Shown: one piece after another, positions 10,153 to 31,045 of the stretch
Numbering within the stretch: the stretch's first letter is position 1
Layout of the letters: each line of letters starts with the position of its first letter
Assembly: GCF_902806265.1 (NCBI RefSeq)
Contig: NZ_CADCVZ010000006.1
Coordinates: 1-64,000 of the forward strand
DNA from: an uncultured Sphingomonas sp.
GTDB lineage: Bacteria > Pseudomonadota > Alphaproteobacteria > Sphingomonadales > Sphingomonadaceae
Direction: 5' to 3'
DNA length: 64,000 nt
Translations under genes and position numbers: made by a program
The notes under the pieces: model-generated
Told to the model about the DNA's origin: nothing
Database searches by the model: none
What the model saw: only the letters and a program-made list of their open reading frames with translations

Positions 10153-10162
10153 CGTCAATTCC

Positions 10163-14596: not shown

Positions 14597-14630
14597 CAAT
14601 CTTCCGTCCGTTACCTGTTGGGTGGGGCCT

Positions 14631-15917
14631 CTAGAGGCTCCAATAATGGATGTCGGGCCTCAGCGAGCCAGGTGGCACTGCCGACTTCACATCCACGAAG
14701 ATCCCGTCGCTTGCGACCATTTGCCCAAAGTCGTTACCATCGAGTAAACCATAAGTGGAATGGGGAACTGCCAGGATCAGGGCATGCAGATCGCGAAACT
14801 CCTCAAGTGAGGACAATTCGACACTATATTCCTCGATCACCGAGTGCGGCGATGCCATGGGATCATGGACCAGCGGCTTCAGCCCGAACGACACCAGCTC
14901 CCGATGGATGTCGACCACCTTGGAGTTGCGGATGTCGGGAACATTCTCCTTGAAGGTGAAGCCGAGAATGCCGACCCGCAAGTTCTTGAGCGGCATGTCG
15001 TTGCGCGACAACAGCTTGATCAGGCGCTGGCCGATGTAGGCGCCCATGCTGTCGTTGATGCGGCGGCCCGACAGGATCACTTCGGGATGGTAGCCGAGTT
15101 CTTCCGCCTTGGCCGTGAGGTAGTAAGGATCGACCCCGATGCAGTGGCCGCCTACTAGGCCGGGGTGGAACTTCAGGAAATTCCACTTGGTGCCGGCCGC
15201 AGCGAGCACGTCGCGCGACCGAATGCCGACCAGGTCGCAAATCTTGGAGACCTCGTTCATCAGCGCTATGTTGACGTCGCGCTGGGTGTTCTCCAGCACC
15301 TTGGCCGCTTCCGCGACCTTGATGGACGGGGCCTGGTGGATGCCGGCCTCGATGATCGCGCCGTAGACGCCGCACAGGCGGTCGAGCGTTGCCTCGTCCT
15401 GCCCTGCGACCACCTTGACGATCTTCTCCAGCGGATGCTCCTTGTCGCCCGGATTGATCCGCTCCGGGCTGTAGCCGAGGGTGAAGTCGACACCGCACTT
15501 CAACCCCGAGGCCCGCTCCAGGGCGGGACCGCAGATCTCCTCGGTAACGCCGGGGTAGACAGTGCTTTCGAACACCACCGTGGCGCCGGGCGAGAGCACT
15601 GGCCCGACCACCTCGCAAGCCTTGAGCATGGCCCGGAAGTCCGGGCGGTTGGCGTCATCGATCGGGGTCGGCACGGTGACGATGTACAGGGTCTTGCCGA
15701 CGAGCTCGGCGGGATCGGAGGTTATCTGCAGCCGATTGCTCGTCAATTCGCCGGGCGATACCTCATTGGTGCTGTCGACGCCGCGATTGAGATCGTCCAC
15801 CCGCCGCAGGTTGGTGTCGAAGCCGGTGACGTCGGCCTGCCTGGACAAGGCGACCGCCAGCGGCAACCCGACATAACCCAGGCCGATAACACCGATCCTT
15901 TCTTCAATACCCGACAA
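14631..15917 (-). CDS. Nucleotide-sugar dehydrogenase (UDP-HexNAc/UDP-glucose dehydrogenase family)
   Basis: About 428 aa. There is no in-frame ATG; TTG at 15917 with GGGGCGGGG upstream puts the NAD-binding GLGYVGLPLA at residue 11, as usual, while TTG at 15983 would add 22 residues. The family order is clear: Rossmann N-domain, VTVPTPID, FESTVYPGVTEE, GYSPERINPGDK, the KVLENTQRDVNIAL helix, catalytic region LVGGHCIGVDPYYL with the active Cys, and FTFKENVPDIRNSK. The INPGDKEH and GGHCIGVDPYYL segments favour WbpO/TviB-type enzymes making UDP-GalNAcA or UDP-GlcNAcA. It supplies a uronic acid donor and appears to be the first gene of the capsule operon. Confidence 0.88.
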   Translation of the reverse strand: MSGIEERIGVIGLGYVGLPLAVALSRQADVTGFDTNLRRVDDLNRGVDSTNEVSPGELTSNRLQITSDPAELVGKTLYIVTVPTPIDDANRPDFRAMLKACEVVGPVLSPGATVVFESTVYPGVTEEICGPALERASGLKCGVDFTLGYSPERINPGDKEHPLEKIVKVVAGQDEATLDRLCGVYGAIIEAGIHQAPSIKVAEAAKVLENTQRDVNIALMNEVSKICDLVGIRSRDVLAAAGTKWNFLKFHPGLVGGHCIGVDPYYLTAKAEELGYHPEVILSGRRINDSMGAYIGQRLIKLLSRNDMPLKNLRVGILGFTFKENVPDIRNSKVVDIHRELVSFGLKPLVHDPMASPHSVIEEYSVELSSLEEFRDLHALILAVPHSTYGLLDGNDFGQMVASDGIFVDVKSAVPPGSLRPDIHYWSL

Positions 15918-16174
15918 ACTACACCCCGCCCCGGGCCGCGTTAGGGTCGGCCGCCTACCCCTCACCTTGATGTGAATTGGCAATCATCGCGAGAACCTGT
16001 TGCCGCCCTGCCCCCCAAGGCCCAACAGAAACATCGCCAGCGATCACCGAGCATTAGCGGCATAGCTCCTTCGCCCCGGCTGACAAGCTGTTGCGAGATC
16101 CGGTTGGCTGCAACATCGCCAAGTGCAGCTTCGAAGCAACAGTAGCTAACGGGAAGATAACGATTAAATGCGAG
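15918..16174 (-). promoter_or_regulatory. Gap before the capsule operon, probable promoter region
   Basis: 257 bases separate the end of the PIG-L gene from the nucleotide-sugar dehydrogenase, the only real break between the two long minus-strand operons. A TTGTCA hexamer on the minus strand (near 16080-16085) has a poor TATGCC partner 16 bases on. I see no other clear site. It may hold the capsule promoter. Confidence 0.35.
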
Positions 16175-16867
16175 CTAGCTGCTTGCCGGATGGTACCATT
16201 CACTGGCCTGCCGTTCCAAGCGTTCGGCCAGCGCCCCGGCGCCCCCGAACTGAAGGCCGAGCTGCGTTACGTAACTCGCGCAGACGCAGTATTTGACGGC
16301 TCGCGCCTCGGGCGAGACGGTCCATCGGCAAGCGGTATCGCGCCCCTGTGCGCCTGCCCGATCAAGATAAGGCCAGTCCTCCCACAGGCGCAACCTGGGT
16401 AGTGGTAGAAGCCGGATTGCGTCGCGGACGATCAGGTGATCGACGTGGCCGCCGATCCCCAGCGGGGCAAGGACCCGGCTTGGCTGGAGATCGGCCAACA
16501 CTTGGGTCAGCGCGCGGGGCACTGCTGCCAGCGCAGCGTCATGGGGAAGCACATCGCCGAACAGCGCGGCCGCGTTCTCGTAGCCGCGATGGGGAGCTTC
16601 GAGCAGCGGCAGGTGGATCGGCTCGGCCCCGAGCGCCCGGCAGGCCTGGCGGTCCTCCTCGCGGCGCAGGGCCATATAGTCGACGTCGGCCGGCAGCCCC
16701 TTGTCCAGCTGGCAGGCCAGCGCGAAGCCCGACGGCTGCGCCACGTTGCCGGTGAACACGGTAGCGACGACCACCCGCCAGCCGCGCTGGGCCGCGGTCC
16801 ACAGCAGGGCCCCGGCAGAGAAGGCGGCATCGTCGAGGTGGGGCGAGACGGCGAGCAGGGTCCTCAC
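16175..16867 (-). CDS. PIG-L family deacetylase
   Basis: 230 aa, last gene of the nine-gene YcaO cluster, GTG start overlapping the glycosyltransferase stop (GTGA). PIG-L/LmbE zinc sites are clear: SPHLDDAAFSAG (His10, Asp12, Asp13) and GGHVDHLIVRDA (His141, Asp143, His144). These enzymes remove N-acetyl groups from GlcNAc linked to another moiety, as MshB does for GlcNAc-inositol, BshB for GlcNAc-malate and PIG-L for GlcNAc-PI. Placed beside a GT4 enzyme and in an operon with inositol-phosphate synthase, a GlcNAc-inositol-like substrate is a reasonable inference. There is no signal peptide, so it acts in the cytoplasm. Confidence 0.88.
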   Translation of the reverse strand: MRTLLAVSPHLDDAAFSAGALLWTAAQRGWRVVVATVFTGNVAQPSGFALACQLDKGLPADVDYMALRREEDRQACRALGAEPIHLPLLEAPHRGYENAAALFGDVLPHDAALAAVPRALTQVLADLQPSRVLAPLGIGGHVDHLIVRDAIRLLPLPRLRLWEDWPYLDRAGAQGRDTACRWTVSPEARAVKYCVCASYVTQLGLQFGGAGALAERLERQASEWYHPASS

Positions 16868-18072
16868 AACAGGTGCGGCTCCGCGCGGAAGTGGCAAGGC
16901 GTCAGCGGCAGGTCGGGGTCGAAGGCGGTGTCGGGCGTGGTGCCGGCGAGCTGCTCGTAGACGCCCATGATCTGTCGGCCGACCGCGTCCCAGCTGTAGG
17001 TGCGGCGGCATTCCTCCAGCGACGTGGCGGCGAGCCGGCGGCGGAGCTGCGCATCGTCCACCAAGCGGGTGAGCGCCTTGGCCAGCACCACGCGATCGCC
17101 CGGCTCGACCAGCAAGCCGTTCTCGCCGTCGCGCAGGCAGTCGACCACCCCGACCGAGCGGCAGGACAGCACGGCCAGCCCGCTCGCCAACGCCTCCAGG
17201 ATGGTGTTGGAGAAGCCCTCGGCATAGGTGGGAGAGACGAAGATGTCGTGGCCTCGGTAGACCTCGGGCACCCGATAGTAGTCCGCATAGCCGGTGAAGG
17301 TCACCCGGTCGGTCAGGCCAAGCTCCTCCGCCAGCGCCTTCGCGGCGTCCAAGTCGGGGCCGATGCCGGAGATAGTGGCCGGCCACTCGCCGCCGGTAAG
17401 CTGGAGCGCGTGGAGGAAATCAAGCACGCCTTTCCGGCGATCCACCCGCCCGTGGTAGAGGATGCTCACGGCGCCCTCCGAACGGGCGGTAGCTGGCGTG
17501 AAGCGGTTGGTGTCGACGGCGCCCGGCACGACGGTGAAGCGCTCCAGCGACGTTCCCAGCCGATCGCGCACTTCCTCGGCGAAGCTCCACCCGCCGATCA
17601 GCAGCGCGCCGGCATGGTTCAACACCCGCACCATCACCAGCCGGTGCGTCTCGCAGCAGCTGCCCACCCAATGGCCGTCGCCGCCCTGGATCGAGACGAG
17701 GTTGGGCACGCCGGTCCGTTGCGACGCGAGCAGCGCCGCCCAGCCGGTCGGATAGCCGTACTGCGCGTGAAGGAGGTCGAACGGCTGCGCGCGGTGCTCG
17801 GCGACGATCGTTTCCACGAGCTCGGCGATGTCGCGCTCGAAGTCGCCGCCGTCCTGCTCGCCGCGCTGTTCGAGGCCGATGACCTTGACGCCCGGCACAT
17901 TGGGAGGCGGGCCGCCGCCGTAGACCCGCGTGCCGAGCGGGTCGCCGCGATACTGGCTGACCATGGTGACGTCGTGCCCCGCCGCGACCAGCTGCTCCAG
18001 CAGGTTGAGCGCATAGACCGACATGCCGGAGATCGCCGGAAAGAAGCGCCGGCTGACGAAGCAGATCCTCAA
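16864..18072 (-). CDS. Glycosyltransferase family 4 protein of the YcaO cluster
   Basis: 402 aa with a TTG start overlapping the isomerase stop (TTGA), followed by RICFVSRRFFPAISGMSVY, the usual GT4 opening with a glycine loop. Later elements: GGDGHWVGSC, VVPGAVDTNRFTP, ILYHGRVDRRKGVLDFLHAL, and the donor-site SPTYAEGFSNTILEALASG with the E-x7-E pair. This architecture matches MshA/BshA-like retaining glycosyltransferases as well as many polysaccharide enzymes. The next gene is a PIG-L deacetylase, the same GT4 plus deacetylase pair as in mycothiol and bacillithiol synthesis. The acceptor is not known. Confidence 0.87.
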   Translation of the reverse strand: MRICFVSRRFFPAISGMSVYALNLLEQLVAAGHDVTMVSQYRGDPLGTRVYGGGPPPNVPGVKVIGLEQRGEQDGGDFERDIAELVETIVAEHRAQPFDLLHAQYGYPTGWAALLASQRTGVPNLVSIQGGDGHWVGSCCETHRLVMVRVLNHAGALLIGGWSFAEEVRDRLGTSLERFTVVPGAVDTNRFTPATARSEGAVSILYHGRVDRRKGVLDFLHALQLTGGEWPATISGIGPDLDAAKALAEELGLTDRVTFTGYADYYRVPEVYRGHDIFVSPTYAEGFSNTILEALASGLAVLSCRSVGVVDCLRDGENGLLVEPGDRVVLAKALTRLVDDAQLRRRLAATSLEECRRTYSWDAVGRQIMGVYEQLAGTTPDTAFDPDLPLTPCHFRAEPHLL

Positions 18073-18899
18073 GCGCCGGCTGTCCGCAGATAAGCGATCG
18101 CCTCGGGGATGGCGGCGTGCGCGCGGGGGCTTTCGCGGCTGTACTCGACGCAGACCAAGCGATCGAAGCCGATCTCGGTGAGCGCCGCCACCACCGCGCC
18201 CACGTCCATGTCGCCTTCGCCGAACGGCAGATGTGTGTGGTCGCCCACCTTCATGTCTTCAATCGACACGGTACCGAGCGCGTCCGCGTACTGGCGCACC
18301 GCCTTATCGGGGGCGATGTCCTGGGCGACCAGGCAATGGCCGGTGTCCAGCGCCAGCCGGAGGGCCGGGTGCCGCTGCGCCACTGCGTCATAGTCCGCCA
18401 CGGTTTCGACCAGCATCCCGGGCTCGGGCTCCAGGCTGACTGCGACGCTGCGTGCTCCCGCATGGTCGCACACGGCGGCGATGCCTTCGTGGAGCCAGGT
18501 CATGGCCTGCTCGCGATCGACCTGCGGCTTGGGCACGCCCGCCCAGAAGGACACGGTCTCGCTGCCGAGCTTGGCGGCGATGTCGATTGCCCGGCACAGG
18601 AACTCGACCCGCCGGGCGCGGCCCTCTGGGCTCGGGTTGAGCAGGGTCGGCTCATGCTTTTCGCGCGAGTCGAGGAGGTAGCGGGCGCCGGTTTCGATCA
18701 CCGTGCCGAGGTCGAGCCGGTTCAGCCGCTCCCGCAGCCGCTCCACCTGCCGCTGCCAATCGTAGGCGAACGGATCGAGGTGGTGGTGGTCGAGCGTCAG
18801 GGCCACCCCCTGGTAGCCGCAGTCGGCGATCAGCGCGACGGCATCGTCCAACCGGTGACTGGACGCGCCATTGGTATTGTAGGCGATCCGCAGGCTCAT
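18069..18899 (-). CDS. Sugar phosphate isomerase/epimerase (TIM barrel)
   Basis: 276 aa, ATG overlapping the YcaO stop (ATGA). Xylose-isomerase-like TIM barrel (AP endonuclease 2 superfamily): opening RIAYNTNGASSHRLDDAV, candidate metal ligands Glu157 (VSLEPEPGM), Asp185 and His188 (LALDTGHCL), and Glu252 (CVEYSRES), with FGEGDMDVGAVVAAL as the typical GxGxxD turn. Relatives include IolE and IolI of inositol metabolism and hydroxypyruvate or tagatose epimerases. Given the inositol-phosphate synthase and the Gfo/Idh/MocA oxidoreductase in the same operon, action on a keto-inositol or keto-sugar is plausible. Confidence 0.85.
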   Translation of the reverse strand: MSLRIAYNTNGASSHRLDDAVALIADCGYQGVALTLDHHHLDPFAYDWQRQVERLRERLNRLDLGTVIETGARYLLDSREKHEPTLLNPSPEGRARRVEFLCRAIDIAAKLGSETVSFWAGVPKPQVDREQAMTWLHEGIAAVCDHAGARSVAVSLEPEPGMLVETVADYDAVAQRHPALRLALDTGHCLVAQDIAPDKAVRQYADALGTVSIEDMKVGDHTHLPFGEGDMDVGAVVAALTEIGFDRLVCVEYSRESPRAHAAIPEAIAYLRTAGA

Positions 18900-20401
18900 G
18901 CGGCCTCCGCCTCCAGGTGGACCAGCATCTGGTGCGCTCCCGGCTCGCGATAGAGCGGGTATAGCGCACCGACCTTGGCATCGACCGCGGCCGTGTCGAG
19001 CAGGGGCGTGCCGCCCAAGCGGTCGTAGGCCTCGGGCGAGAGCCGGACCGGGCGAACGGCGGCGGTCGGCGCGGCGTTCCAGCGGAGCAGCGGGCTGTCG
19101 CGGTCGCGCAGCTTGGCGGCGTTGCGCTCGCCGATCCGGTGATAGCTCATCGTCTCCACCTCCAGCCTGGGCACGATCACGCGCACCGCGTGCATCGCCG
19201 CACCCGGCTCGGTGAAGTCGAGAACGAGCGGATCGAGCCCGGCGGCAAGCAGCCGGAGCGCCGCTTCTTCGCCCTTGGCGACGGGGTCCGCGATGTCGCT
19301 GGCGGGCAGGCCGGTGAACGCCCGCTCGCTCCGCACGGTGAAGACCGGATCGGCCAGCAGCTCGCGCAGGCGCTCGCCGTCCAGGCTCAGCCAACGGCGG
19401 AAGGCCTCGACCTGGCGCGGTTCGGTGTCGCGGGCGGCGCGGTGGACGCGCGGCTCGACCCGCTCCCAGTAGCCCGGCGGCATGACGCCGCGGATGCGCT
19501 CAACCAGACCGAAGGTGAAGGCCTTGCGCGCCCGGGCGTGGGCATACTCCAGCACCGCCTTGCGCAGCGCCGCGACCCGGTCGAGGTCGCACGCTTCGCC
19601 GCCGCCGGTCATGGCGATCGGGACGGGCAGGCGCGAGGGGTCGCGGTCCGCGCCAACCACGAACAGGTTGGAAAAGCCGAATTCGTCGGTAGCGAACTTA
19701 GGCAGGAGGTCGATGCCGGCCGCTTCGACCCGGTCGATTGCCGCCTGCAACTCGGGCGGCAGCGGCTCATCGAAGGTCAGACGCACGCCCGCGTCCATCG
19801 CCCGAAACAGCAGACCGTTGCCGTCGCGCTGCAGGCATTCGAACAGGCCGTGCGCCGCCGCCCACTCCCGCGAAGGTCCGGCGCCCAGGCCGTTGGTGAT
19901 CAGGGTGGTGAAGGGCCGGTAACCCGGCGGCAGGTGATCGGCCGTGAGCGCCGCGACGTCCACCGGAACCAGCACCGGCTCGTCTGAGAACCAGCGGCGC
20001 GCCTCCACCCAGCTGAGCGGCGTGTCCCGGTCCACGGGGGAGCCGGCCGGAAGGCAGAACTCGAGCGGGTCGGCCACGCCCTCCTGCCCCCGTCCCCTGA
20101 CCAGCTGATTGTAGCTGCCTTCCACCTGCGGCTTGCGGGCGAAGCCGAGCCGCGCGCGCACCTCCTCCAGGCACTCGGCGGTGGCCGCGATCATCGCTTG
20201 CTCGGGCGTTGCGCCATAGCCCGTGCCCTGCTGCATCTCGCATCCGGCCGCCGCCGGATCGTGCGGGAACATCGCCGCCTTCCACGCGGGCACGCCCGTG
20301 ACGTCGAGCGGGCTCATGTCGAACAGGAACCAGTCGCTCGGCGGCAGCGCCTCCGTGTAGGCGCGCACCACGGCCGGGACCGGATGGTCGGAGTGGATCA
20401 T
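18896..20401 (-). CDS. YcaO-domain protein
   Basis: 501 aa, about the size of a single YcaO enzyme. Two ATP-binding blocks typical of YcaO are seen: GYGATPEQAMIAATAECLEE (61-80, the E..A....E..E helix) and TNGLGAGPSREWAAAHGLFE (169-188) followed by CLQRDG. The usual ExxER pattern reads E188-C-L-Q191-R192, so the second acid is Gln here. YcaO enzymes phosphorylate amide oxygens to make azolines, thioamides or amidines, mostly on ribosomal peptides, sometimes on proteins (RimO-linked) or small molecules. No E1-like/ThiF, TfuA or precursor peptide gene lies in the operon, so a non-peptide or distant substrate is possible. It overlaps both neighbours by ATGA. Confidence 0.85.
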   Translation of the reverse strand: MIHSDHPVPAVVRAYTEALPPSDWFLFDMSPLDVTGVPAWKAAMFPHDPAAAGCEMQQGTGYGATPEQAMIAATAECLEEVRARLGFARKPQVEGSYNQLVRGRGQEGVADPLEFCLPAGSPVDRDTPLSWVEARRWFSDEPVLVPVDVAALTADHLPPGYRPFTTLITNGLGAGPSREWAAAHGLFECLQRDGNGLLFRAMDAGVRLTFDEPLPPELQAAIDRVEAAGIDLLPKFATDEFGFSNLFVVGADRDPSRLPVPIAMTGGGEACDLDRVAALRKAVLEYAHARARKAFTFGLVERIRGVMPPGYWERVEPRVHRAARDTEPRQVEAFRRWLSLDGERLRELLADPVFTVRSERAFTGLPASDIADPVAKGEEAALRLLAAGLDPLVLDFTEPGAAMHAVRVIVPRLEVETMSYHRIGERNAAKLRDRDSPLLRWNAAPTAAVRPVRLSPEAYDRLGGTPLLDTAAVDAKVGALYPLYREPGAHQMLVHLEAEAA

Positions 20402-21228
20402 CCGAGACTCTCCAGCGGCAATCGCCTGACTCCCGGTGCGCGGGCAAGCCCCTCGTCCAGCGCTGCGAGCGCCTGCGCACGGCCGATCTCCCGCGCATAT
20501 TCGAATGGGGTGAGCACCGCGTCAAACTCGAGCGGCGCGATCACTTCGCGGTAGCGGCGGAGCTCGGCGTGGGTCAGCGGGATGTCCTTGTGAAAGGCTT
20601 TGTGGCTGCTGATGCCGTGCGAGCGGCCGTCCGCGTCCTGATCCACCTTGAACATGTCGCCGCAGAACAGCCGCCCGTGCACGGCATCGTGCAGCGCCGC
20701 CTGCCCGGCGTAGTGGCCGCCGACATGGTGGAGCGTGTAGCCGGGGGCGAGCTCCAGCTGATCATCGTAGGGCGCGGTGACCTGGAAGGCCTTGGTCATC
20801 TGCAGGTCGTCGCGATGGATGGCCAGCAGCTCGGGCGCGAACTCGCGCTGCAGCTGGAACAGCGCGCCATAGCCATGGGCATGGCTGGCGGCGAGCAAGC
20901 GAATGCCGCCGAGCGCACGCAGCTGATCCAGCATGGCGGCCGAGTAGTAAGGCGCGGCCTCGAACGCGATATTGCCTTCGGGGCGGATGATGAGCCAACC
21001 CGTGCCGGCCAGGCCGAGGTTGGGCGTGGTGGTGAACGCCCACAGGTCGGGCGCGACTTCGCGAAAGGCGCCGGAGTGGGTCGCGGCGACCTCCTCCTCG
21101 GGCAGGAAGTGCCAGCCATCCTCCGGCAGGTCGTTGCGCACGTCGGTGCACACCGGGCAGTCCGGCGGGGTGGCGAAATGGAGCTGCCAGAAGCCGCAGT
21201 TGGCGCAGGCGTAATGGCTCAAAGGCAT
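20398..21228 (-). CDS. Zinc-ribbon plus metallo-beta-lactamase-fold protein
   Basis: 276 aa, ATG inside the end of the oxidoreductase gene (10-base overlap). Residues 1-30 carry a rubredoxin-like zinc ribbon (Cys8, Cys11, Cys24, Cys27: ACANCG and CPVC). The rest resembles the MBL fold: LLAASHAHGYGALFQLQ (His116, His118), HHVGGHYAGQAAL (His172), LFCGDMFKV (Asp191). The normal HxHxDH motif reads HAHGYG, so the Asp-His pair of the second metal site is gone; one metal site may persist. It could be a hydrolase or oxygen-handling enzyme reshaped for this pathway. Its exact role is unknown. Confidence 0.75.
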   Translation of the reverse strand: MPLSHYACANCGFWQLHFATPPDCPVCTDVRNDLPEDGWHFLPEEEVAATHSGAFREVAPDLWAFTTTPNLGLAGTGWLIIRPEGNIAFEAAPYYSAAMLDQLRALGGIRLLAASHAHGYGALFQLQREFAPELLAIHRDDLQMTKAFQVTAPYDDQLELAPGYTLHHVGGHYAGQAALHDAVHGRLFCGDMFKVDQDADGRSHGISSHKAFHKDIPLTHAELRRYREVIAPLEFDAVLTPFEYAREIGRAQALAALDEGLARAPGVRRLPLESLG

Positions 21229-22220
21229 GCGATGGCCCGATCGTAGGCGCCGGCGAACAGGCGCATCAGCGTGAGGTCGCGGCTTAGCGAGAAGTCGTGC
21301 GGTCTGCCGTGCACGGCATCGGCGAAGGCGGCCGCCTGCGCGGCGAAAGGACTGAGCCCGGTATCGAAGGCGATCGGCCGCTGCTCGCCCCTTCGACCGC
21401 AGGTCAGCACGGCGGTCCCACCGGCGGACTGGCCCATGGTGTCGATGGCGACAATTGCGCCGCGGTCGCCGATGACCTCCAGCCGGCGGCGGGGCAAAGC
21501 CTCGGGACAGTTGTAGGCAACATGGCTGCCGAACAGGGCGCCGCTTGCGAACCGTCCGGACAGCATGCCGCCGTCGTCGACCGGATAGTCGTGCACCCGG
21601 CGCTGAAGCTCGATGTGCAGGCGGACCAGCGGCTCGCCGAGCAGCAGCTGCGCCAGGTCGAGGCCGTGCAGCGCAAGGTCGAAGACCGCGCCGCCGCCGG
21701 CCGCCTGCGGGTTCGCGCGCCAGTTCCCCTCTTCGTTCTCGGCACCGGGCGGCCGCCAGCGCGGGTCGACCCAGCAGGCATAGCCGATGCGCACGGCCGT
21801 CACCTGCCCGATCGCGCCGTCCGCGATCTCGCGGGCCGTCGCCCGATGCGCCGGATGGTGCCGCTGATCGAAGGCGGTGCCGTACAGCACTGGCTCGGCT
21901 GCCACGGCGATCTCCTCCGCCTGGCCGAGCGTCGCCGCCATCGGTTTCTCGCACAGCACGGGGATGCCGGCGCGGGCTGCTTCGGCCACTGGCGGCAGAT
22001 GCAGGTGATTGGGTGTCGCAACGTAGATCGCGTCCGGGCGCCGCTCGAGCAGTTCGGCCGCACTGCCGAAGGCTTCAAGTCCGGCCGCTTCAGCCTTCGC
22101 CCGAGCGCCGGGCGACGGGTCCGCCACGCCGACCAGCTGCTGAGCGGCGGCGGCGATCGCGGGCGCCATATGGTCCCGCGCCACCCAGCCAAAGCCCACG
22201 ATGCCCCAGCGGAACGGCAT
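21219..22220 (-). CDS. Gfo/Idh/MocA family oxidoreductase
   Basis: 333 aa, ATG sharing one base with the methyltransferase stop (TGATG). N-terminal Rossmann fold with FRWGIVGFGWVARDH, the family hallmark CEKPMA (Glu91-Lys92-Pro93, the catalytic lysine), then an alpha/beta domain with GGGAVFDLALHGLDLAQLLL where Asp and His of the DxxxH active-site motif are seen. Relatives oxidise inositol (IolG) or glucose, reduce keto-sugars, or make amino-sugar intermediates with NAD(P). In this operon it most likely oxidises an inositol or sugar hydroxyl. Confidence 0.88.
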   Translation of the reverse strand: MPFRWGIVGFGWVARDHMAPAIAAAAQQLVGVADPSPGARAKAEAAGLEAFGSAAELLERRPDAIYVATPNHLHLPPVAEAARAGIPVLCEKPMAATLGQAEEIAVAAEPVLYGTAFDQRHHPAHRATAREIADGAIGQVTAVRIGYACWVDPRWRPPGAENEEGNWRANPQAAGGGAVFDLALHGLDLAQLLLGEPLVRLHIELQRRVHDYPVDDGGMLSGRFASGALFGSHVAYNCPEALPRRRLEVIGDRGAIVAIDTMGQSAGGTAVLTCGRRGEQRPIAFDTGLSPFAAQAAAFADAVHGRPHDFSLSRDLTLMRLFAGAYDRAIACL

Positions 22221-23329
22221 CACCAGCGCTCCGGCAGGTCGATGAGCTCGCGCCGCCGCGCCGCTTCCGCCCACTGCGGCGCCATGAGCGTTTCGGTGGG
22301 CAGGTCGACACGGCAGGAGTAGGTCACTCGCGGGCCGTATTCCTCCGCGTAGCGGGCGCTTGGCCAGCGGGGGCCCTCCGCCCCGCACAGCGGATTGCGG
22401 CGGAGCGTTCGGCCCGGCAGAGGCAGGTCGAAGGGCCCGCGGCCGGCAGCCGGTCCGGCGCCGATCACCAGGGCGAAAGCCTCGGTTTCGCGCGACGCGC
22501 CGGGCTCGGGCATGCTGCCGGTCGCGCCGGCGCGGGTCAGCACCTCGTCGTCGTAGAACACCGCGCCGGCGAACATCGCCTGTACCACTTCGCGGGTCAT
22601 GCCATAGCCGCGCGAGAGGTTGGGATGCACGGCATTGTGGATGTGGGCCAGCGCCACCACGGGCGCCACCGATCGCAGCTCGCGCGCGACCGCCGGCTTG
22701 TTGGCGAAGAAGTAGAAGGCGTCATGGCAGAAGGCGAGGTCGGTCCGGACCTCCACCGGCCAGCGCCCGTCCGCGTCGAAGCACAGGAGCTCGGCTTGCG
22801 GTGCGATCCAGTGCCGCGCGACCCATAGCTTGGCGAACACCACGTCCGCGCCGACGACGTCCACACCCACCTGGCCGAGGGCGCGCAAGTAATGACCGAT
22901 CCCGCAGGCCAGCTCGAACGCGGTCCGGGGCGCGCTCCAGTGCGCGTCGAGCAGGGTCAGGCCCGCGACAAAGGTCGGGTCGCTCCAGCGATGCGCGAAA
23001 TAGTCGCCGACCCGCCCCCAGCCAAGCAGTCGCATCGCCTCGCGCAGGCTGATCTCGTCCTTGCCGTCGATCACCCGCCTGAGGTCCCCGGGGAGCGGCG
23101 GCGGCTCGGTCCACCAGCGATCATTCTCGGCCAGCAGCAGGACCAGCGCGCCAGCCCGGTCGCCCGCGTCCAGCCGCTCCAGTGCGGCCGCAGCCAGCGC
23201 TTCGGACCCCGCGCGGAGGTAGGTGATCCCGTCCACCACCGGCCAGCGCTCGCTTCGCCCGTCGGACAACGAGTGCGCGCTGTCGAACCGAAGCGGCCGG
23301 CCGCTGGCGGGGGAGCGATAGCGGATCAA
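22220..23329 (-). CDS. Class I SAM-dependent methyltransferase
   Basis: 369 aa, TTG start overlapping the HD-like gene stop (TTGA); no suitable ATG exists nearby. The SAM site is AFELACGIGHYLRALG (137-152), followed by VVGADVVFAKLWVARHW. The first 40 residues (ending WPVVDGITYLRAG) look like a Trm112-type domain whose zinc cysteines have been lost, a common lead-in for small-molecule methyltransferases. A C-terminal extension of about 100 residues has no family I recognise. It would methylate an O, N or C atom of the cluster product. Confidence 0.8.
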   Translation of the reverse strand: MIRYRSPASGRPLRFDSAHSLSDGRSERWPVVDGITYLRAGSEALAAAALERLDAGDRAGALVLLLAENDRWWTEPPPLPGDLRRVIDGKDEISLREAMRLLGWGRVGDYFAHRWSDPTFVAGLTLLDAHWSAPRTAFELACGIGHYLRALGQVGVDVVGADVVFAKLWVARHWIAPQAELLCFDADGRWPVEVRTDLAFCHDAFYFFANKPAVARELRSVAPVVALAHIHNAVHPNLSRGYGMTREVVQAMFAGAVFYDDEVLTRAGATGSMPEPGASRETEAFALVIGAGPAAGRGPFDLPLPGRTLRRNPLCGAEGPRWPSARYAEEYGPRVTYSCRVDLPTETLMAPQWAEAARRRELIDLPERW

Positions 23330-24216
23330 AGCAGCCCGACCTCCTGCAAGGTTGAATCTTGGAAAGCTTTGACCGGTCCGGCGTGCACGAGCTCGTAGTC
23401 GCCGAGGACGGCATCCATGGTCGCGCCGGCGGCGGTCAGGTGCTGCTCGATCTCGAGCACGCGGTCGATCACATCCGCTGCGTGAAAGGCGCGCCCTTCC
23501 GGCGAGGCATCGTCCGCGATTAGCGCCAGCGCTGCCTCCATCCGGCTCCGCAAGGACGGGGGCAGTTCGGACAACGCCCGCTCCCGCCCGCGGGCGATCA
23601 CAGGATCGAGCAGGTCGCCGAGCAGCACTTCGCCGGTGAAGCCGCTGTCCGGCATGTAGGCATTGTGGAAGTGGTGGCCGAGGCCCGCCAGGAACACGGC
23701 TGTCCGGTCAGCGCCGTAGCCGGGCGCAAGCAACACGCCATAGACGGCCACCGCCAGGCAATGCTCGGCGTGGTTCTCGGCCGGCTCCAGCATTAACCGC
23801 GGCTTGCCCGGGCAGGTCACGCCAGCCCGCGGCTGGTCGGCCAGGAGCAGCGCGAAGGCGGGCGGCGCACCGACCGGCAGCTCCTCCGCGAGAACAGCCT
23901 GGAGCTCGCTCGCTAGGGCGGGATCAATCGCGCCGTCGACCGTCTCGAACGCCGTTCGAAGCACTTGCTCCGCCTCGTCCCGCGACAAGCCCAACTCGAA
24001 TAGCTTGGCGAGATCCAAATCGCCCAGCCGCGCCGCCGCCAGCGCCGCTCCAACCGTTCGCCGCCCGACCTCCCGCGGCTCCTCTCCCGCCATCAGCGCT
24101 CCCCACCCCGCCAAGAACATGCGGGTGGCGATCGATCCGTTCCGGCCCGCGGAGGTGATGCGCTTGAGGTTGCCCAGCTCGCGAAACAGGGGGATCAGCC
24201 CGGCGCGATCGCTCAT
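23326..24216 (-). CDS. HD-domain-like protein of the YcaO cluster
   Basis: 296 aa, ATG overlapping the inositol-phosphate synthase stop (ATGA). All-helical. A possible HD metal site is visible: ENHAEHC (His149, His152), FLAGLGHHFHNAY (His181, His182, His184) and AFHAADVIDRVLEI (Asp248, Asp251). The classical His-Asp pair is His-His here. HD proteins include phosphohydrolases and also di-iron oxygenases such as myo-inositol oxygenase and PhnZ, so with an inositol-making enzyme next door either a phosphatase or an oxygenase role is possible. I cannot assign a family with certainty. Confidence 0.6.
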   Translation of the reverse strand: MSDRAGLIPLFRELGNLKRITSAGRNGSIATRMFLAGWGALMAGEEPREVGRRTVGAALAAARLGDLDLAKLFELGLSRDEAEQVLRTAFETVDGAIDPALASELQAVLAEELPVGAPPAFALLLADQPRAGVTCPGKPRLMLEPAENHAEHCLAVAVYGVLLAPGYGADRTAVFLAGLGHHFHNAYMPDSGFTGEVLLGDLLDPVIARGRERALSELPPSLRSRMEAALALIADDASPEGRAFHAADVIDRVLEIEQHLTAAGATMDAVLGDYELVHAGPVKAFQDSTLQEVGLL

Positions 24217-25391
24217 CCCCGGCTCAGCCACTGGTCGAGGATCAGCTGCTGCTCGCCGAAGCCATGCTCCGGATCGCGTCCGTCGGCGGTTTGCGGCGCC
24301 TTGAAGAAGATGCCGAGCTGTTCCTGCACCCCGCCGTCCCCGCGCTGGTGAGCGAGGTCGAGCACCCGGGCGATCTCGATCACCAACGGGGCCGCCAGCA
24401 CCGAGTCCTTGCACAAGAAGTTGAGCTTCAGCTGCATCTTCTGGCCGAGGAAACCAGTGATATCGATGTTGTCCCAGGCTTCCTTGTCGTCCCCGCGCGG
24501 GCGGTAATAATGGATCATCACGATGTGATCCTCGACCGGGTAGCCCATGATCTGGTCGAGCACGCTCTTTTTGGTGTCGAGCTTGGAGGCGAGGCTCCGG
24601 GGATCGTCCAGCGCCTTGCCGTCCGAGTTCCCGAGGATGTTGGTCGAGAACCAGCCGTCAACGTGCAGCGCTCGCTGGCGCAGGGCGGGTGCGATGACGG
24701 TCTTCATCATCGTCTGGCCGGTCTTGCCGTCCTTGCCCCCGACCGGCACGTTGCGCTTGGCGGCAAGTTCGGTGAGCGGCACGACGTCGGCGGCCACCGA
24801 CGGGGTGAAGTTGGCATAGGGCGTATCGGCGCCGATCGCGGCGTAGGCGTAGAGCATGGCCGGACTGATCGCCGGGTCGTTGGCATCGAGCCCGCGCTCG
24901 AAGGCGTCCAGGCTCTTAAGACTCTCGGCTTCGGCGTCCGGCATCCGCTCGGTCGAGGCCAGGTTGATCATCACCATCCGGTCGAGATCCTGCTCCTGCC
25001 GGAATCGGTCCATGTCGGCGCGGATCAGCTCGACCGCCTTCCGGTGCCCGTCCGCCGCAACCTTGTTCCCACCGTCGATGTTGGCGCAGAAATCGGTGCT
25101 GCCCACCGCCGGCCAGGCGCGCATGCCCTTCAGTGACGAAGCGCCGTCGTTCAGCTCAGGCTCGCCAATTACTCCGTGGCGCAGGGCGCAGCTATCAAGC
25201 GTTTCTTCCGTCAAGTCCCAGCCGCCGAACACGATATCGCGATAGCCCGCCATGCCGTTCACGTTTCGGTCGGCGAGCGGCAGCCCGGCCAGGCTGTTGG
25301 AGCCGGCCTTGATCATCTCGATCCCGGCGATGGCGGTAGTTGCGACCGCTCCGCCCACGCCGACCACCGCGACACCCAACCGACCCGACAT
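24213..25391 (-). CDS. myo-Inositol-1(3)-phosphate synthase family protein
   Basis: 392 aa; the ATG at 25391 has GGGAGA five bases upstream and starts just before the NAD-binding VVGVGGAVATTAIAG. Later segments match bacterial and archaeal inositol-phosphate synthases: INLASTERMPD, TPSVAADVVPL, NVPVGGKDGKTGQTMMKT, STNILGNSDGKAL and KSVLDQIMGYPVEDHIVM with lysines in the expected catalytic places. The enzyme converts glucose 6-phosphate to inositol phosphate through an internal NAD redox cycle. It is the first gene of the nine-gene operon, so inositol phosphate or a close cyclitol is likely the first committed intermediate. Confidence 0.9.
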   Translation of the reverse strand: MSGRLGVAVVGVGGAVATTAIAGIEMIKAGSNSLAGLPLADRNVNGMAGYRDIVFGGWDLTEETLDSCALRHGVIGEPELNDGASSLKGMRAWPAVGSTDFCANIDGGNKVAADGHRKAVELIRADMDRFRQEQDLDRMVMINLASTERMPDAEAESLKSLDAFERGLDANDPAISPAMLYAYAAIGADTPYANFTPSVAADVVPLTELAAKRNVPVGGKDGKTGQTMMKTVIAPALRQRALHVDGWFSTNILGNSDGKALDDPRSLASKLDTKKSVLDQIMGYPVEDHIVMIHYYRPRGDDKEAWDNIDITGFLGQKMQLKLNFLCKDSVLAAPLVIEIARVLDLAHQRGDGGVQEQLGIFFKAPQTADGRDPEHGFGEQQLILDQWLSRG

Positions 25392-25534
25392 CCCGCTCTC
25401 CCTGTCCGCGCGAGCCAAGGCATCGACGCGCTGGTAAAGCTAATCGACGGAACGCCCCAAGGTTCAGCGTCGAGCGGTCTGCGACCTAGAAAAAAGCGGA
25501 CGTCCGTTACATAGGTCTATGGCTGCAGCAGCCG
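25392..25534 (-). promoter_or_regulatory. Gap between Crp-like gene and YcaO cluster, with weak terminator
   Basis: The 143-base gap must contain the start signals of the nine-gene cluster if it is transcribed apart from the Crp-like gene. On the minus strand a 10-base palindrome (25497-25506) is followed by a six-T run (25490-25495), a weak intrinsic terminator for the Crp-like gene. A second small hairpin lies near 25519-25531. No clear -35/-10 pair or Crp box (TGTGA-N6-TCACA) is seen. Confidence 0.45.
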
Positions 25535-26287
25535 TTAGTGACTTATGTCACTGCTATTGGCGGTGGGCGGCAGCCAGTCCACCGCGACATGCCCATGCCG
25601 GTCGTTGAAGTCCACCAGCTGCGACAATGCCCCGATGTCCATGATTCGGATGATCTTGCCGTCGCGCTCCAGCAGGCCGGTTGCTTCCAGCGCTTTCAGC
25701 GACCGGTTGACGTGCGCCTTGGTCAGACCGACCGCGTCGCCCAGGTCCTGCTGCGTCAGCGGCAGCTGGAAGGTCGTGCCGTTCAGCCCGTCGACCAGCC
25801 GCAGGCGCGAGTGGATATCGAGCAGCAGCGTCGCCACTCGGGTCATCCCGTCGGTTCGGCCGATGGAGGTCAGCCGGTCGGCCATCGCGACATGCTCCGA
25901 CGCGCTGACGCCATAGAGCAGCGCGCCGAGCCGCGGGTGATCCTGGAACAAGCGGCCGAGCGCCGGGCGGGGCGTTTCGTACAGGGTACAAGGGCTGACC
26001 GCCGTCAGGGTCGCCGCGCTATACCCCCAGGCGATGCTGAAGGTGGTGGTGACGTCGCCCACGAAGTAGAAGCGCAGGATCTGCCGTCCGCCGTCCTTGA
26101 GTTGCACCGACCCGTGCAGCCAGCCGGACGCGACGATGTGGAGCTTGTCGGTCTCCTCGCCTTCGCGGACCACGGTCTCCCCTGCCTCGAACCTTTGCTC
26201 GCGCCGCTCCAGCCACTGCAGCGCATCGCGCTCGGCAAAGGTCAGCGGCAGGTGCTGCGACAGGCGAAGTTCGAGCGGGCTGGACAT
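25535..26287 (-). CDS. Crp/Fnr family transcriptional regulator
   Basis: 250 aa from the ATG at 26287 (GGGGGAA upstream). N-terminal cyclic-nucleotide-type jelly roll (FEAGETVVREGEETDKLHIV, ILRFYFVGDV) and a C-terminal winged helix with the HTH LTQQDLGDAVGLTKAHVNRS. There are no N-terminal cysteines for an Fe-S cluster, so it is not an oxygen-sensing FNR; the effector is unknown. It is on the same strand and 143 bases upstream of the YcaO cluster, which makes it a candidate regulator, though such genes are common in sphingomonads and the link is inference. Confidence 0.88.
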   Translation of the reverse strand: MSSPLELRLSQHLPLTFAERDALQWLERREQRFEAGETVVREGEETDKLHIVASGWLHGSVQLKDGGRQILRFYFVGDVTTTFSIAWGYSAATLTAVSPCTLYETPRPALGRLFQDHPRLGALLYGVSASEHVAMADRLTSIGRTDGMTRVATLLLDIHSRLRLVDGLNGTTFQLPLTQQDLGDAVGLTKAHVNRSLKALEATGLLERDGKIIRIMDIGALSQLVDFNDRHGHVAVDWLPPTANSSDISH

Positions 26288-26416: not shown

Positions 26417-27808
26417 TCAGCTGTTCCAGCCGCCGCCCAACGAGCGGAACAGGTCGATCTGCGCCTCGACGATCCGGGCATCGGCTTCGGCGAGCGCAGC
26501 CTGGGCGTCGGCTGCGGTGCGTTCGCTGTCGAGCAGCTCGAGCGAATTGATGTCGCCTTCACGCTGGCGAGCACGGGTAATCCGGGCCGCAGCTTCGGCC
26601 TCGTCGCGGGCGGATTGCAGTGCCGTGCGCCGCTGCAGTGCGTTGCGATAGGACGATAAGGCCGTTTCGGTCTCCTCCAGCGCCTGGAGCACGGTACCGT
26701 CAAAGGTCGCCAGCGCAGCCTGCGTGTTGGCCTGCGCGCCCGCCACCCGGGCCCGCGCCGCGCTGCGGTTGGCGGTCCAGTTGATCAGCGGTCCGACCAG
26801 CCAGCTCAACGGATTGAACAGGCTGCCTACACCCGCGCCGCTCGAGCCGGTGGAGCCACCCAGGGTGATTTGCGGGTAGAGCTCGGCGGTGGCGACCCCG
26901 ATCCGCGCGGTGGCGGCGGCCAGGCGCCGTTCGGCGGCACGCACATCCGGGCGACGAGCAAGAAGGGTCGCGCCATCCCCCACCGGGATCGGCCGGTCGA
27001 GGCGGAGCGTGGCGGTCCGGGCGGCCGCCGACCCGGGCAGCTCGCGCGGGGTTCGGCCGGTCAGCGTGGCGAGCCGGAACAAGGCCGCCTGGCGCTGCGC
27101 GGCGAGCAACGGGATTTCGGCCTGCCGTTGATCGCGCAGGGCGGCAATCCGGGCGGTGTCCAGGCGGGTGCCGAGCCCGACCTCGACCCGGCGCTGGGTC
27201 AAGTTCAGCGACCGGCTCAGCAGAGCCACGATCCGTTCTGCGGTGGTGATGCGCTCGGCGAACGAGGCCGCATCGGCATAGGCGCGAGCCGTTTCCCCGA
27301 CGATCGCCACCCGGACGGCGTCCGAGTCTGCTGCCGCCGCGCCGACGTCCCCGCGCGCCGCCTCGATGTCGCGCGAGATGCGGCCGAACAGGTCGGCTTC
27401 GTAGGCGACGTCCAGGCCGACATCGACCTGCAGGTCCGTGCGGTTCTGGCCCGGAATGGCCGGACCCGGAAGGCGGCCGTACTGGCTGCTGCCTCCAAGG
27501 CCGACCTGCGGCTCGCGCGCGCCCCGGCTTTCCCGCAGCAACGCCCGTGCCTGGACCAGCCGTGCCGCGCCGACACGGATGTCGGTGTTGGCGGCCAAGG
27601 CATCGGCGATCAGGCCGTCGAGCACCGGGTCCTGGTAGAGCCGCCACCAATCGTCAGCCGGCTGAGCGTCCGACACTGCTGCACCAGCAACCAAGACGAA
27701 GGGGCCGGACGCGGGGGCGGAGATCGACCCGGCGCGGTAGTCCGGTCCGCTTGCGCAGGAGGCCAGGGCAAGTGCCGACCCTGCAGCTGTCAATAATCGC
27801 TTGCGCAT
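26417..27808 (-). CDS. RND efflux outer-membrane lipoprotein, NodT/OprM type
   Basis: 463 aa. Lipoprotein signal MRKRLLTAAGSALALASCAS with the Cys at 18. Two repeats of long helices typical of TolC-type channels follow: WWRLYQDPVLDGLIADAL, then ARAYADAASFAERI and the second-repeat LLARRPDVRAAERRLAAATA with IGVATAELYPQITLGG. It forms the outer-membrane exit duct of the tripartite pump whose adaptor and inner-membrane pump are encoded directly upstream (12-base gap to the pump gene). Confidence 0.9.
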   Translation of the reverse strand: MRKRLLTAAGSALALASCASGPDYRAGSISAPASGPFVLVAGAAVSDAQPADDWWRLYQDPVLDGLIADALAANTDIRVGAARLVQARALLRESRGAREPQVGLGGSSQYGRLPGPAIPGQNRTDLQVDVGLDVAYEADLFGRISRDIEAARGDVGAAAADSDAVRVAIVGETARAYADAASFAERITTAERIVALLSRSLNLTQRRVEVGLGTRLDTARIAALRDQRQAEIPLLAAQRQAALFRLATLTGRTPRELPGSAAARTATLRLDRPIPVGDGATLLARRPDVRAAERRLAAATARIGVATAELYPQITLGGSTGSSGAGVGSLFNPLSWLVGPLINWTANRSAARARVAGAQANTQAALATFDGTVLQALEETETALSSYRNALQRRTALQSARDEAEAAARITRARQREGDINSLELLDSERTAADAQAALAEADARIVEAQIDLFRSLGGGWNS

Positions 27809-27820
27809 GAACTTTATCCC

Positions 27821-30800: not shown

Positions 30801-30997
30801 GGTGCGGCGACGGTGGACGCCACGGTCTCCGCCGACGCGCCGGGATAATTGGCGTTCACGGTTACAGTTGGCGGCACGATGTCAGGATATTGCGAGACCG
30901 GGAGCCCGAAGTAGGCGATCCCGCCCATCACCGTGATCAGGATGGCGATAACCGCGGCAAAGATCGGCCGGGTGATGAAGAAACGGGACATGCGCAT
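27821..30997 (-). CDS. RND multidrug efflux pump, AcrB/MexF family
   Basis: 1058 aa with twelve membrane spans and two large periplasmic loops. Start: ATG at 30997 (GGAG nine bases before) giving MRMSRFFITRPIFAAVIA, the standard HAE1 opening; GTG at 31012 would add five residues. Proton-relay aspartates are present in span 4 (VLAIGIVVDDAIVVVENV), and FIPAQDQGYF and the span-11 LIALAAKNAILIVEFA lysine are conserved. It expels hydrophobic drugs or solvents using the proton gradient. It lies between adaptor and channel genes in one operon under the TetR gene. Confidence 0.93.
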   Translation of the reverse strand: MRMSRFFITRPIFAAVIAILITVMGGIAYFGLPVSQYPDIVPPTVTVNANYPGASAETVASTVAAPIEQEINGVDDMLYMSSQSTGDGNLTITVTFAQGTDLNAAQVLVQNRVAIATPRLPQEVQRLGIVTRKTSPDFLMVVNLVSPGNVLDRGYMSNYALSQVRDRIARLDGVGDVRLFGARDYAMRVWIDPERAAALNLTAGEIVAALRAQNVQVAAGTLGQPPYANGNAFQLNIETQGRLTDAEQFANVVVRSDADGRQVRVSDVARVELGAADYANNTYLSGQPSVGLGVFQRPGTNALAAAEAVEAEMEAASKSFPAGLEYKVIYNPTEFISQSIDAVLITLLEAIALVVLVILVFLQRWRAAVIPVIAIPVSLIGTFAVLQMVGYSLNNLSLFGLVLAIGIVVDDAIVVVENVERNLARGLSALEAARTSMDEVGAALVAIVLVLCAVFLPTLFLGGLSGAFYHQFAVTISAATLISLLLSLTLSPALAALLLKPHGEEKPGNRITELARAAGDRFNRMFERFSDAYALLTRRLVQAPKRMMAAYAALIGATVALFSITPTGFIPAQDQGYFLTVVQLPSGSSLERTDEVLREVAERIMPIPGVEGAVMLAGFDGASQTQAPNAAAAYIPLKSFEERKKLGVTFAGIMAEAQKRTADINEARLLVVPPPLIQGIGSAGGYRMVVQDTGGRSFQELSGLSWGVIGKANQTPGLQQVYTLFDISTPRVFADIDRSKADMLGVPPERVFEALQVYLGSAFVNDFNLLGRTYRVTAQADAPFRATEADIANLRARSNSGAMVPVGSVTTFEDRSGPYRVSRYNGFPAVEIDGDTAPGFSSGQSLQAMEKLAAESLPAGYRTEWTGIAYQQKAAGNTSALVFGLAVLFVFLVLAAQFESLVLPLAIILIVPMCLLAAMMGVNLRGMDNNVLTQIGLIVLIALAAKNAILIVEFARQDEDAGMSPIEAAVRAARDRLRPILMTSFAFILGTLPLLIATGAGAELRQALGTAVFFGMIGVTAFGLIFTPTFYVVCRTLADRISRRRRGDSASPALVPAE

Positions 30998-31045
30998 GGG
31001 AACGGTCTCCACGCCCGCGGGCGTTGAGGAAGGGAACGGAGCGAT

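Follow-up and report, generated by a model that had tools for sequence, protein, structure and literature searches.

A conserved nine-gene YcaO operon in Sphingomonas relatives and other bacteria, possibly for a glucosaminyl-cyclitol-type metabolite

We analysed nine contiguous minus-strand genes, which join an inositol-phosphate synthase and sugar-modifying enzymes to a YcaO-domain protein, in a 64,000-nucleotide stretch of DNA from an uncultured Sphingomonas sp. (hereafter the window). The window is part of a 71-kb contig in a 2.33-Mb draft genome of a relative of Sphingomonas. The view that the nine genes are a conserved biosynthetic unit is well supported. Our tentative proposal, which we regard as possible rather than probable, is that they are a horizontally mobile operon for a small polar glucosaminyl-cyclitol-type metabolite that aids life in strong sunlight. 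A sugar–cyclitol product is likely, and the data suggest a protective role against ultraviolet (UV) light; we infer the product, every chemical step and the role. Compared with an earlier description of this DNA made from the letters alone (the sequence-only reading), the new elements are a Crp-family regulator with a pair of operator-like sites, the occurrence in three phyla, the loss of the second metal motif in a metallo-beta-lactamase (MBL)-fold protein, an HD-to-HH change in another protein, the exchange of YcaO in place and an association with the UV-repair gene uvsE.

Layout, conservation and proteins of the operon

All nine genes have open frames, from position 25391 down to 16175. In transcription order, they are as follows.

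24213..25391, minus strand: inositol-3-phosphate synthase (MIPS); Pfam NAD_binding_5 and Inos-1-P_synth
23326..24216, minus strand: HD-superfamily-like protein, possible phosphatase; AlphaFold2 model, Foldseek, motif residues
22220..23329, minus strand: class I S-adenosylmethionine-dependent methyltransferase, TTG start; Methyltransf_11 24.7 bits, cut-off 21.2
21219..22220, minus strand: Gfo/Idh/MocA oxidoreductase; Pfam, NCBIfam and solved-structure comparison
20398..21228, minus strand: MBL-fold protein with N-terminal zinc ribbon; model, Foldseek 2p97, motif counts
18896..20401, minus strand: YcaO-domain ATP-dependent enzyme; Pfam YcaO 163 bits
18069..18899, minus strand: xylose-isomerase-like TIM-barrel isomerase/epimerase; Pfam AP_endonuc_2 132 bits
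16864..18072, minus strand: GT4 glycosyltransferase, MshA-like among others, TTG start; Pfam, NCBIfam
16175..16867, minus strand: PIG-L (LmbE) de-N-acetylase, GTG start; Pfam 64 bits

The sequence-only reading had these genes joined stop to start (ATGA, TTGA, TGATG, a 10-base overlap, ATGA, ATGA, TTGA and GTGA), and all eight junctions were confirmed, with overlaps of 4, 4, 1, 10, 4, 4, 4 and 4 bases. Its view of the genes as one tightly coupled unit was also borne out. Using YcaO as bait, we found 31 loci in GTDB genomes, 28 of which held four or more of the eight remaining genes, all in the same order, with the MBL gene reversed at the end in one of them (L018); in three loci YcaO stood alone.

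We then tallied 50 distinct loci that exceed 7 kb and contain three or more core genes, in which only loci with identical 240-base Gfo/Idh segments were merged and near-identical strains were counted separately; three YcaO-only loci (L004, L010 and L030), a two-gene locus (L066) and plasmid loci were left out. All nine genes occurred in one order in 36 of the 50, in Alphaproteobacteria and Actinobacteria, and the order of the genes present was constant throughout, save for one locus with MBL moved to the 3' end. Genes were missing or moved, damaged, or cut by contig ends in the other 14. In eight of these (the damaged L032 and seven loci of Methylobacterium type or from Lichenibacterium), MBL was missing from its usual slot. 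Three had neither MBL nor PIG-L, and two of these three were truncated by contig ends. The Aureimonas locus had a reversed MBL gene at its end, with YcaO at another site in the genome; the remaining two were truncated by contig ends, and one of them also lacked the methyltransferase.

The cluster is sparse and widely spread. With GT4 as bait, it was found in 14 of the 298 genomes examined in the window's family and in 3 of 385 from its class (the window genome included); with the HD protein as bait, in 6 of 299 Pseudomonadota (the window genome plus five from a single genus) and in 7 of 246 Actinomycetota. Five of the six actinobacterial loci compared have the nine-gene order, and the sixth, on a short contig (L103), lacks the methyltransferase; the best matches of these loci are 42–76% identical to one of six query sets. 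Plasmids carry the cluster as well: all nine genes occur on a Roseomonas haemaphysalidis plasmid, two Methylobacterium megaplasmids match eight genes with no MBL match in the stretch, and a plasmid of Hymenobacter volaticus (Bacteroidota; L108) has the set without the methyltransferase, with the Gfo/Idh and GT4 matches split. On this last plasmid (unnamed6; L108 and L113), Gfo/Idh is annotated in two frames, and a gene for a biliverdin-producing heme oxygenase and a GAF-domain gene lie slightly more than 20 kb from the cluster. No GT4 relative was found in the viral contigs searched.

The family names given earlier stood for seven of the nine proteins, which score above the Pfam cut-off; HD (E = 0.04) and MBL (E = 0.012) fell below it. 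Predicted structures give clear support for the MBL fold and, at weak E-values, also favour the HD fold, and comparison of sequence profiles of these two proteins with solved structures gave nothing meaningful. For the HD-like protein (predicted local distance difference test (pLDDT) score 91), the top five Foldseek matches were HD-domain proteins at E values of 0.06–0.26, all above 0.05 and none below 0.001. Its putative counterpart of the H...HD...D motif of HD phosphohydrolases consists of H149/H152, H181-H182 in place of HD, and D248/D251, and is invariant in 40 of 40 aligned rows. The MBL-fold protein (pLDDT 76) matched 2p97 with E = 7e-11. HxHxDH is the two-metal motif of metallo-beta-lactamase hydrolases; here it is replaced by SHxHxYG in 34 of 35 rows and by SHxHxFG in one, so that HxH is kept and the DH of the second metal site is lost, and one metal site may be left. 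Four invariant cysteines make up the predicted ribbon.

The YcaO protein belongs to its superfamily by a wide margin (163 bits against a Pfam cut-off of 25.7). E76, E79, E188 and E285 are invariant in 41 of 41 rows, as is Q191, where MJ1094, the best solved relative (42 bits), has Glu; conserved YcaO glutamates of this kind bind ATP/Mg. MIPS aligns over its full length with solved MIPS enzymes (best solved relative 7nwr, 276 bits) and has 147 invariant residues of 392 (40 rows). GT4 has 130 of 402 (41 rows). Among the best 25 of 38 NCBIfam families, MshA is third for GT4 at 88 bits, behind two other GT4 families; MshA is also one of its five solved relatives, the best of which is a cyanobacterial protein that we take to be sucrose-phosphate-synthase-like. 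For the TIM-barrel protein, the nearest NCBIfam models are IolO, hydroxypyruvate isomerase and IolE, all below cut-off. The nearest solved relatives of PIG-L are the teicoplanin/A40926 pseudoaglycone deacetylases, which remove an acyl group from a glycosidic glucosamine.

Two loci outside the tally hold only parts of the set. Sphingomonas jatrophae (L004, about 10001–11506) has a lone YcaO, 73% identical to that of the window, in a genome that has UvsE and in which searches gave neither an HD nor an MBL match nor any close relative of GT4; this suggests a remnant or a different use. In Mesorhizobium liriopis (L066, 9767–11617 and 1784–5488), Gfo/Idh and MBL are the only genes of the set at the locus, and YcaO occupies a separate site in this genome; genes for a BLUF blue-light sensor and a PAS/GAF HWE-kinase are within 10 kb.

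A candidate pathway and its rivals

An aminoglycosyl-cyclitol product is plausible given MIPS, an MshA-like GT4 and a deacetylase nearest to enzymes that act on sugar-bound N-acetylglucosamine. In the route that we propose, MIPS would convert glucose 6-phosphate to inositol phosphate, from which the HD protein may remove the phosphate; GT4 would add an N-acetylhexosamine and PIG-L would free its amine. Oxidation of the cyclitol or sugar and its isomerization (or dehydration) would fall to the Gfo/Idh/MocA and TIM-barrel proteins. YcaO enzymes act by phosphorylating an amide oxygen, and we infer amide chemistry for this one from its superfamily alone. In this operon, it would act on a cyclitol or sugar, using ATP to activate an oxygen of a small molecule, not a peptide, which is then replaced by a nitrogen or sulfur nucleophile. 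The methyltransferase, which is absent in some lineages, and the MBL-fold protein would carry out the final steps.

The sequence-only reading knew of no pathway with this set of nine genes, and our profile and literature searches likewise turned up none: no title or abstract opening among those listed described the cluster, most subscription papers being outside the coverage, and the NCBIfam models listed for mycothiol, bacillithiol, TOMM peptides and inositol catabolism all scored below cut-off for the nine proteins.

Mycothiol biosynthesis (Ino1, MshA and MshB) also brings together an inositol-phosphate synthase, an MshA-related GT4 and a PIG-L deacetylase, whereas the operon adds the HD, Gfo/Idh, TIM-barrel, MBL, YcaO and methyltransferase genes. 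Sulfur insertion is known for some YcaO enzymes, and the operon, holding what looks like the front half of mycothiol synthesis, could make a low-molecular-weight thiol as a redox buffer, with YcaO-driven coupling or sulfur insertion in place of the cysteine ligase MshC. We consider such a mycothiol analogue unlikely. There are weak NCBIfam matches to MshA, BshA, BshB1 and Mca, but the scores lie far below the curated cut-offs (33 against 638 bits for mycothiol Ino1, TIGR03450; 88 against 462.5 for MshA, TIGR03449; 75.1 against 273.7 for BshA; 20.6 against 182.5 for BshB1). In a Pfam and NCBIfam search limited to the operon, no MshC- or MshD-like gene was found among the nine. Unlike a housekeeping thiol, the trait is patchy (14 of 298 family genomes), and it is carried also by a Mycobacterium, a genus that makes mycothiol anyway.

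Most characterized YcaO enzymes act on peptides, and the operon shares with the YcaO systems for ribosomally synthesized and post-translationally modified peptides (RiPPs; TOMM, thioamide and amidine peptides) a YcaO with conserved glutamates of the ATP/Mg type. The nearest NCBIfam model of this YcaO is the SagD-family cyclodehydratase (TIGR03604). Thus, YcaO could modify a precursor peptide encoded elsewhere, which the sugar and cyclitol enzymes would decorate. We regard this as very unlikely. The SagD score is 98 bits against a cut-off of 219, and in contrast to RiPP systems, the operon has sugar and cyclitol enzymes and no adjacent precursor or leader-binding partner that we could find, the latter having been looked for among the nine proteins with Pfam and NCBIfam. 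We compared the 17 open reading frames of at least 20 amino acids in positions 25350–25700 and 15000–16250 of the window; only the tail of the upstream Crp gene recurs in place (17 rows), and one other short frame matches weakly (E = 2e-4) within GT4 of L018/L040, which we take as chance. The gaps before ycaO in three Methylobacterium-type loci contained no shared peptide by eye. In these loci (L017, L021 and L068), a palindromic repeat (CCTCATCCTGAGGTGC...) takes up the Gfo/Idh–YcaO gap, where other lineages have MBL.

In inositol catabolism (IolG, IolE and IolI/IolO), too, a single operon encodes a Gfo/Idh/MocA dehydrogenase along with a xylose-isomerase-like TIM barrel, but the present operon begins with an inositol-making enzyme, and the scores for the IolG and IolE/IolO equivalogs are 80.2 against 355, 19.5 against 290 and 43.9 against 300 bits. 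IolG and IolI make D-chiro-inositol in Bacillus, and some YcaO enzymes make amidines. It is therefore conceivable that Gfo/Idh and the TIM-barrel protein convert myo-inositol and that YcaO makes an amidine on an amino sugar, giving an inositol antibiotic or signal like kasugamycin, although we find this quite unlikely. According to one paper (PMC8869731), kasugamycin is built from D-chiro-inositol, an amino sugar and a glycine imine. The enzymes described there (epimerase, dehydratases, aminotransferase and glycine oxidase) are not among the nine; the paper states that its clusters contain no deacetylase, and the word YcaO does not occur in it (PMC8869731). Beyond the nine genes and Crp, no family (open reading frames of at least 90 amino acids) was common outside groups of near-related strains; hence no common resistance or export gene was seen.

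Surface-glycan loci commonly include GT4, PIG-L and methyltransferase genes, and instead of a diffusible metabolite the operon could build the head group of a glycolipid or polysaccharide. In three cases, an MdoH-like glucosyltransferase gene stands next to the cluster:

L109, 19042-20604: Roseomonas, last gene of the run
L067, 1125-2954: Aureimonas, divergent from MIPS
L143, 17968-19578: G455, divergent from MIPS and about 2.6 kb off

Also in keeping with envelope decoration, a gene that by eye resembles a sugar-nucleotide dehydrogenase follows the operon in the window. However, Pfam found no flippase, acyltransferase or membrane glycosyltransferase among the nine proteins, and MdoH stands beside only these three of the loci compared (and in none of 20 control stretches), which leaves the envelope explanation improbable. 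The flanks of the operon in the window are not kept with the cluster across the loci compared. Named by eye, they hold a repeat-rich SGNH-like-looking protein and the nucleotide-sugar dehydrogenase-like gene downstream (12104-15983), and an outer-membrane efflux protein and a resistance-nodulation-division (RND) pump upstream of the Crp gene (26417-31012).

If the glucosaminyl-cyclitol proposal is extended to a chromophore, which is speculation, the product could be a UV-absorbing aminocyclitol derived from inositol, that is, a mycosporine-like sunscreen made from myo-inositol. This extension is rather doubtful. By analogy, the likeness to mycosporine-like amino acids, which are UV screens, would lie in the proposed role and in ATP-dependent coupling together with a methyltransferase. 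Mycosporine-like amino acids are made by 2-demethyl-4-deoxygadusol synthase (DDGS), the ATP-grasp enzyme MysC, and a ligase that resembles a nonribosomal peptide synthetase or D-Ala-D-Ala ligase; with Pfam, none of these families (DDGS, ATP-grasp, ligase) was found among the nine proteins. In this version, YcaO would replace the ATP-grasp enzyme: after oxidation by Gfo/Idh, dehydration or isomerization by the TIM-barrel protein and O-methylation of myo-inositol, it would phosphorylate an enol oxygen, and the amine of a glucosamine supplied by GT4 and PIG-L would add. UVA absorbers, including methylobamine, have reportedly been found in Methylobacterium (Yoshida 2017 and Kamo 2018, both as cited in other papers), and several Methylobacterium genomes carry the cluster; the product might perhaps be this unexplained UVA absorber.

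Association with UV repair and movement between genomes

The suggestion of a role in sunlight comes from the co-occurrence of the cluster with UvsE (PF03851). In the 298 family genomes, UvsE was present in 14 and the cluster in 14, and both occurred in 5 against 0.66 expected (Fisher p = 1.7e-4; p = 1.3e-3 without the window genome). At the genus level, 6 of 12 cluster genera had UvsE, against 10 of 96 (p = 1.6e-4). In a second set of 50 genomes, UvsE was found in 18 of 25 cluster carriers, both of two YcaO-only genomes and 1 of 23 controls; outside Sphingomonadales, 16 of 17 carriers had it. Repair genes also lie near some clusters. The Roseomonas plasmid has two spore-photoproduct-lyase (SPL) genes on one side of the cluster and, about 9 kb off on the other side, a DHH gene and uvsE (SPL and DHH checked by Pfam). 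In Aureimonas, SPL and DHH homologues (60% and 53% identical) lie 8–10 kb from YcaO, which is itself apart from the cluster; the Aureimonas UvsE locus contains DHH together with an SPL fragment, and by its coordinates it agrees with where the YcaO locus starts, so that both seem to be one place. One actinobacterium has an SPL homologue 2.5 kb from MIPS.

Several results weigh against a functional link. UvsE is missing in 9 of 14 carriers of the family sample and 7 of 25 of the second set (six Sphingomonas/Erythrobacter and a Mycobacterium), for which the 23 controls were hand-picked. Methylobacterium/Methylorubrum accounts for six of the 16 UvsE-positive carriers outside the order, and genomes that are related do not count as independent cases. 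Identity to the UvdE protein of Roseomonas is only 27–36% for the UvdE proteins of Methylobacterium, G455 and the actinobacteria, which form a distant branch, and 66–81% for the proteins from seven other genomes. Where UvsE shares a contig with the cluster, it lies 62 kb away in G016 and 0.28–2.5 Mb away in six others. In addition, SPL, DHH and UvsE form a module of their own that is seen without the cluster (DHH stands beside UvsE in the control G1047), and no photolyase relative was found near any cluster, using one reference. When the search was widened by 20 kb on either side in ten cluster genomes, no relative of SPL, UvsE, DHH or photolyase was found, which rules out UV-repair genes as regular neighbours of the cluster; none was found in 20 control stretches either. 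The single match in this search was an MdoH relative next to the cluster of G455. Because UvsE is often absent, distant or unlinked and the genomes are related, the association is mainly genomic and perhaps ecological, and its cause may be a sunlit habitat common to the carriers and not function.

A DHH-family or SPL gene often stands beside UvsE in L115, L117, L118, L121, L125 and L129. Because Methylobacterium and Erythrobacter carry the cluster, we also tested a link to anoxygenic phototrophy, which served as a negative control. Photo_RC was present in 1 of 14 cluster genomes (2.5 expected), against 54 of 298 overall; this link was rejected.

YcaO occurs in only 2 of 61 genomes of the window's own genus. 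On the Mycobacterium contig, the cluster is flanked downstream by rplM, glmM and a gene for an F420-dependent Rv3520c-type oxidoreductase, and in the tree (support values not given) this copy falls beside that of Sphingomonas lenta. Contamination is an unlikely source of the Mycobacterium locus, the F420-dependent oxidoreductase in the downstream flank being the most telling point; given the downstream flank genes and the place beside S. lenta, horizontal transfer is likelier.

Exchange appears to have affected a single gene as well. In the tree, the window's MIPS, GT4 and TIM-barrel proteins group with L070 and L072, and its YcaO groups with S. lenta, L005 and Mycobacterium. The window's YcaO is 49% identical to that of L070 (G016), the neighbouring genes of which are 65–85% identical to the best query. 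Two YcaO lineages about 50% identical thus occupy the same slot in close relatives, and by sequence comparison the YcaO gene has been exchanged in place in an otherwise conserved operon.

Regulation and wider meaning

Directly upstream of the operon are a regulator gene and two palindromes.

25535..26287, minus strand: Crp/Fnr-family regulator; Pfam HTH_Crp_2 and cNMP_binding
25539..25550, minus strand: operator-like palindrome 1 (TGACATAAGTCA), overlapping the 3' end of the Crp gene
25507..25518, minus strand: operator-like palindrome 2 (AGACCTATGTAA), 32 bases downstream of palindrome 1

A Crp/Fnr-family gene adjoins MIPS upstream in 17 of the 50 distinct loci, the window included; in Hymenobacter, an annotated Crp/Fnr gene lies about 2.6 kb upstream with another gene between. 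Promoter palindromes close to TGACATAGGTCA are found near -158 and -127. Allowing up to two mismatches, such palindromes number 27 in 11,180 promoter bases and 10 in 498,629 downstream bases, a count in which duplicates were kept and the core was chosen by eye from the same promoters before counting. They occur in 17 of 19 rows with an adjacent Crp gene and in 0 of 24 other rows. These results suggest that the Crp-family protein probably regulates the operon; in the window and its relatives, it would switch the genes through the two palindromes upstream of MIPS.

Control by the general stress sigma factor EcfG was rejected as a general rule. An EcfG-type motif (GGAAC-N16-18-GTT) about 100 bases upstream of MIPS was found in only 4 of 43 loci, against 8 occurrences in 420,629 background bases, and is absent in the window. 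The four loci (L017, L021, L025 and L068; spacer N17) are from Methylobacteriaceae and Lichenibacterium, which suggests that general-stress control in these lineages takes the place of the Crp control of Sphingomonadales. In the accessible part of a Sphingomonas melonis EcfG paper, the words inositol and YcaO do not occur (PMC6599016).

Culturable strains, Sphingomonas sp. Leaf20 and Methylobacterium aquaticum 22A, carry the cluster, the latter on pMaq22A_1p, so gene deletion and metabolite comparison would be straightforward. To our knowledge, YcaO enzymes are known almost only as peptide-modifying catalysts. A YcaO that sits among sugar and cyclitol enzymes, in an operon intact in two phyla and near-intact in a third and with no adjacent peptide found, would point to an undescribed branch of small-molecule chemistry. 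If the sunscreen reading is true, YcaO would be working on a sugar or cyclitol in a pathway common to sunlit bacteria of three phyla; and should the UV link prove causal, it would account for some of the sunlight tolerance of bacteria from leaves, air and lichens.

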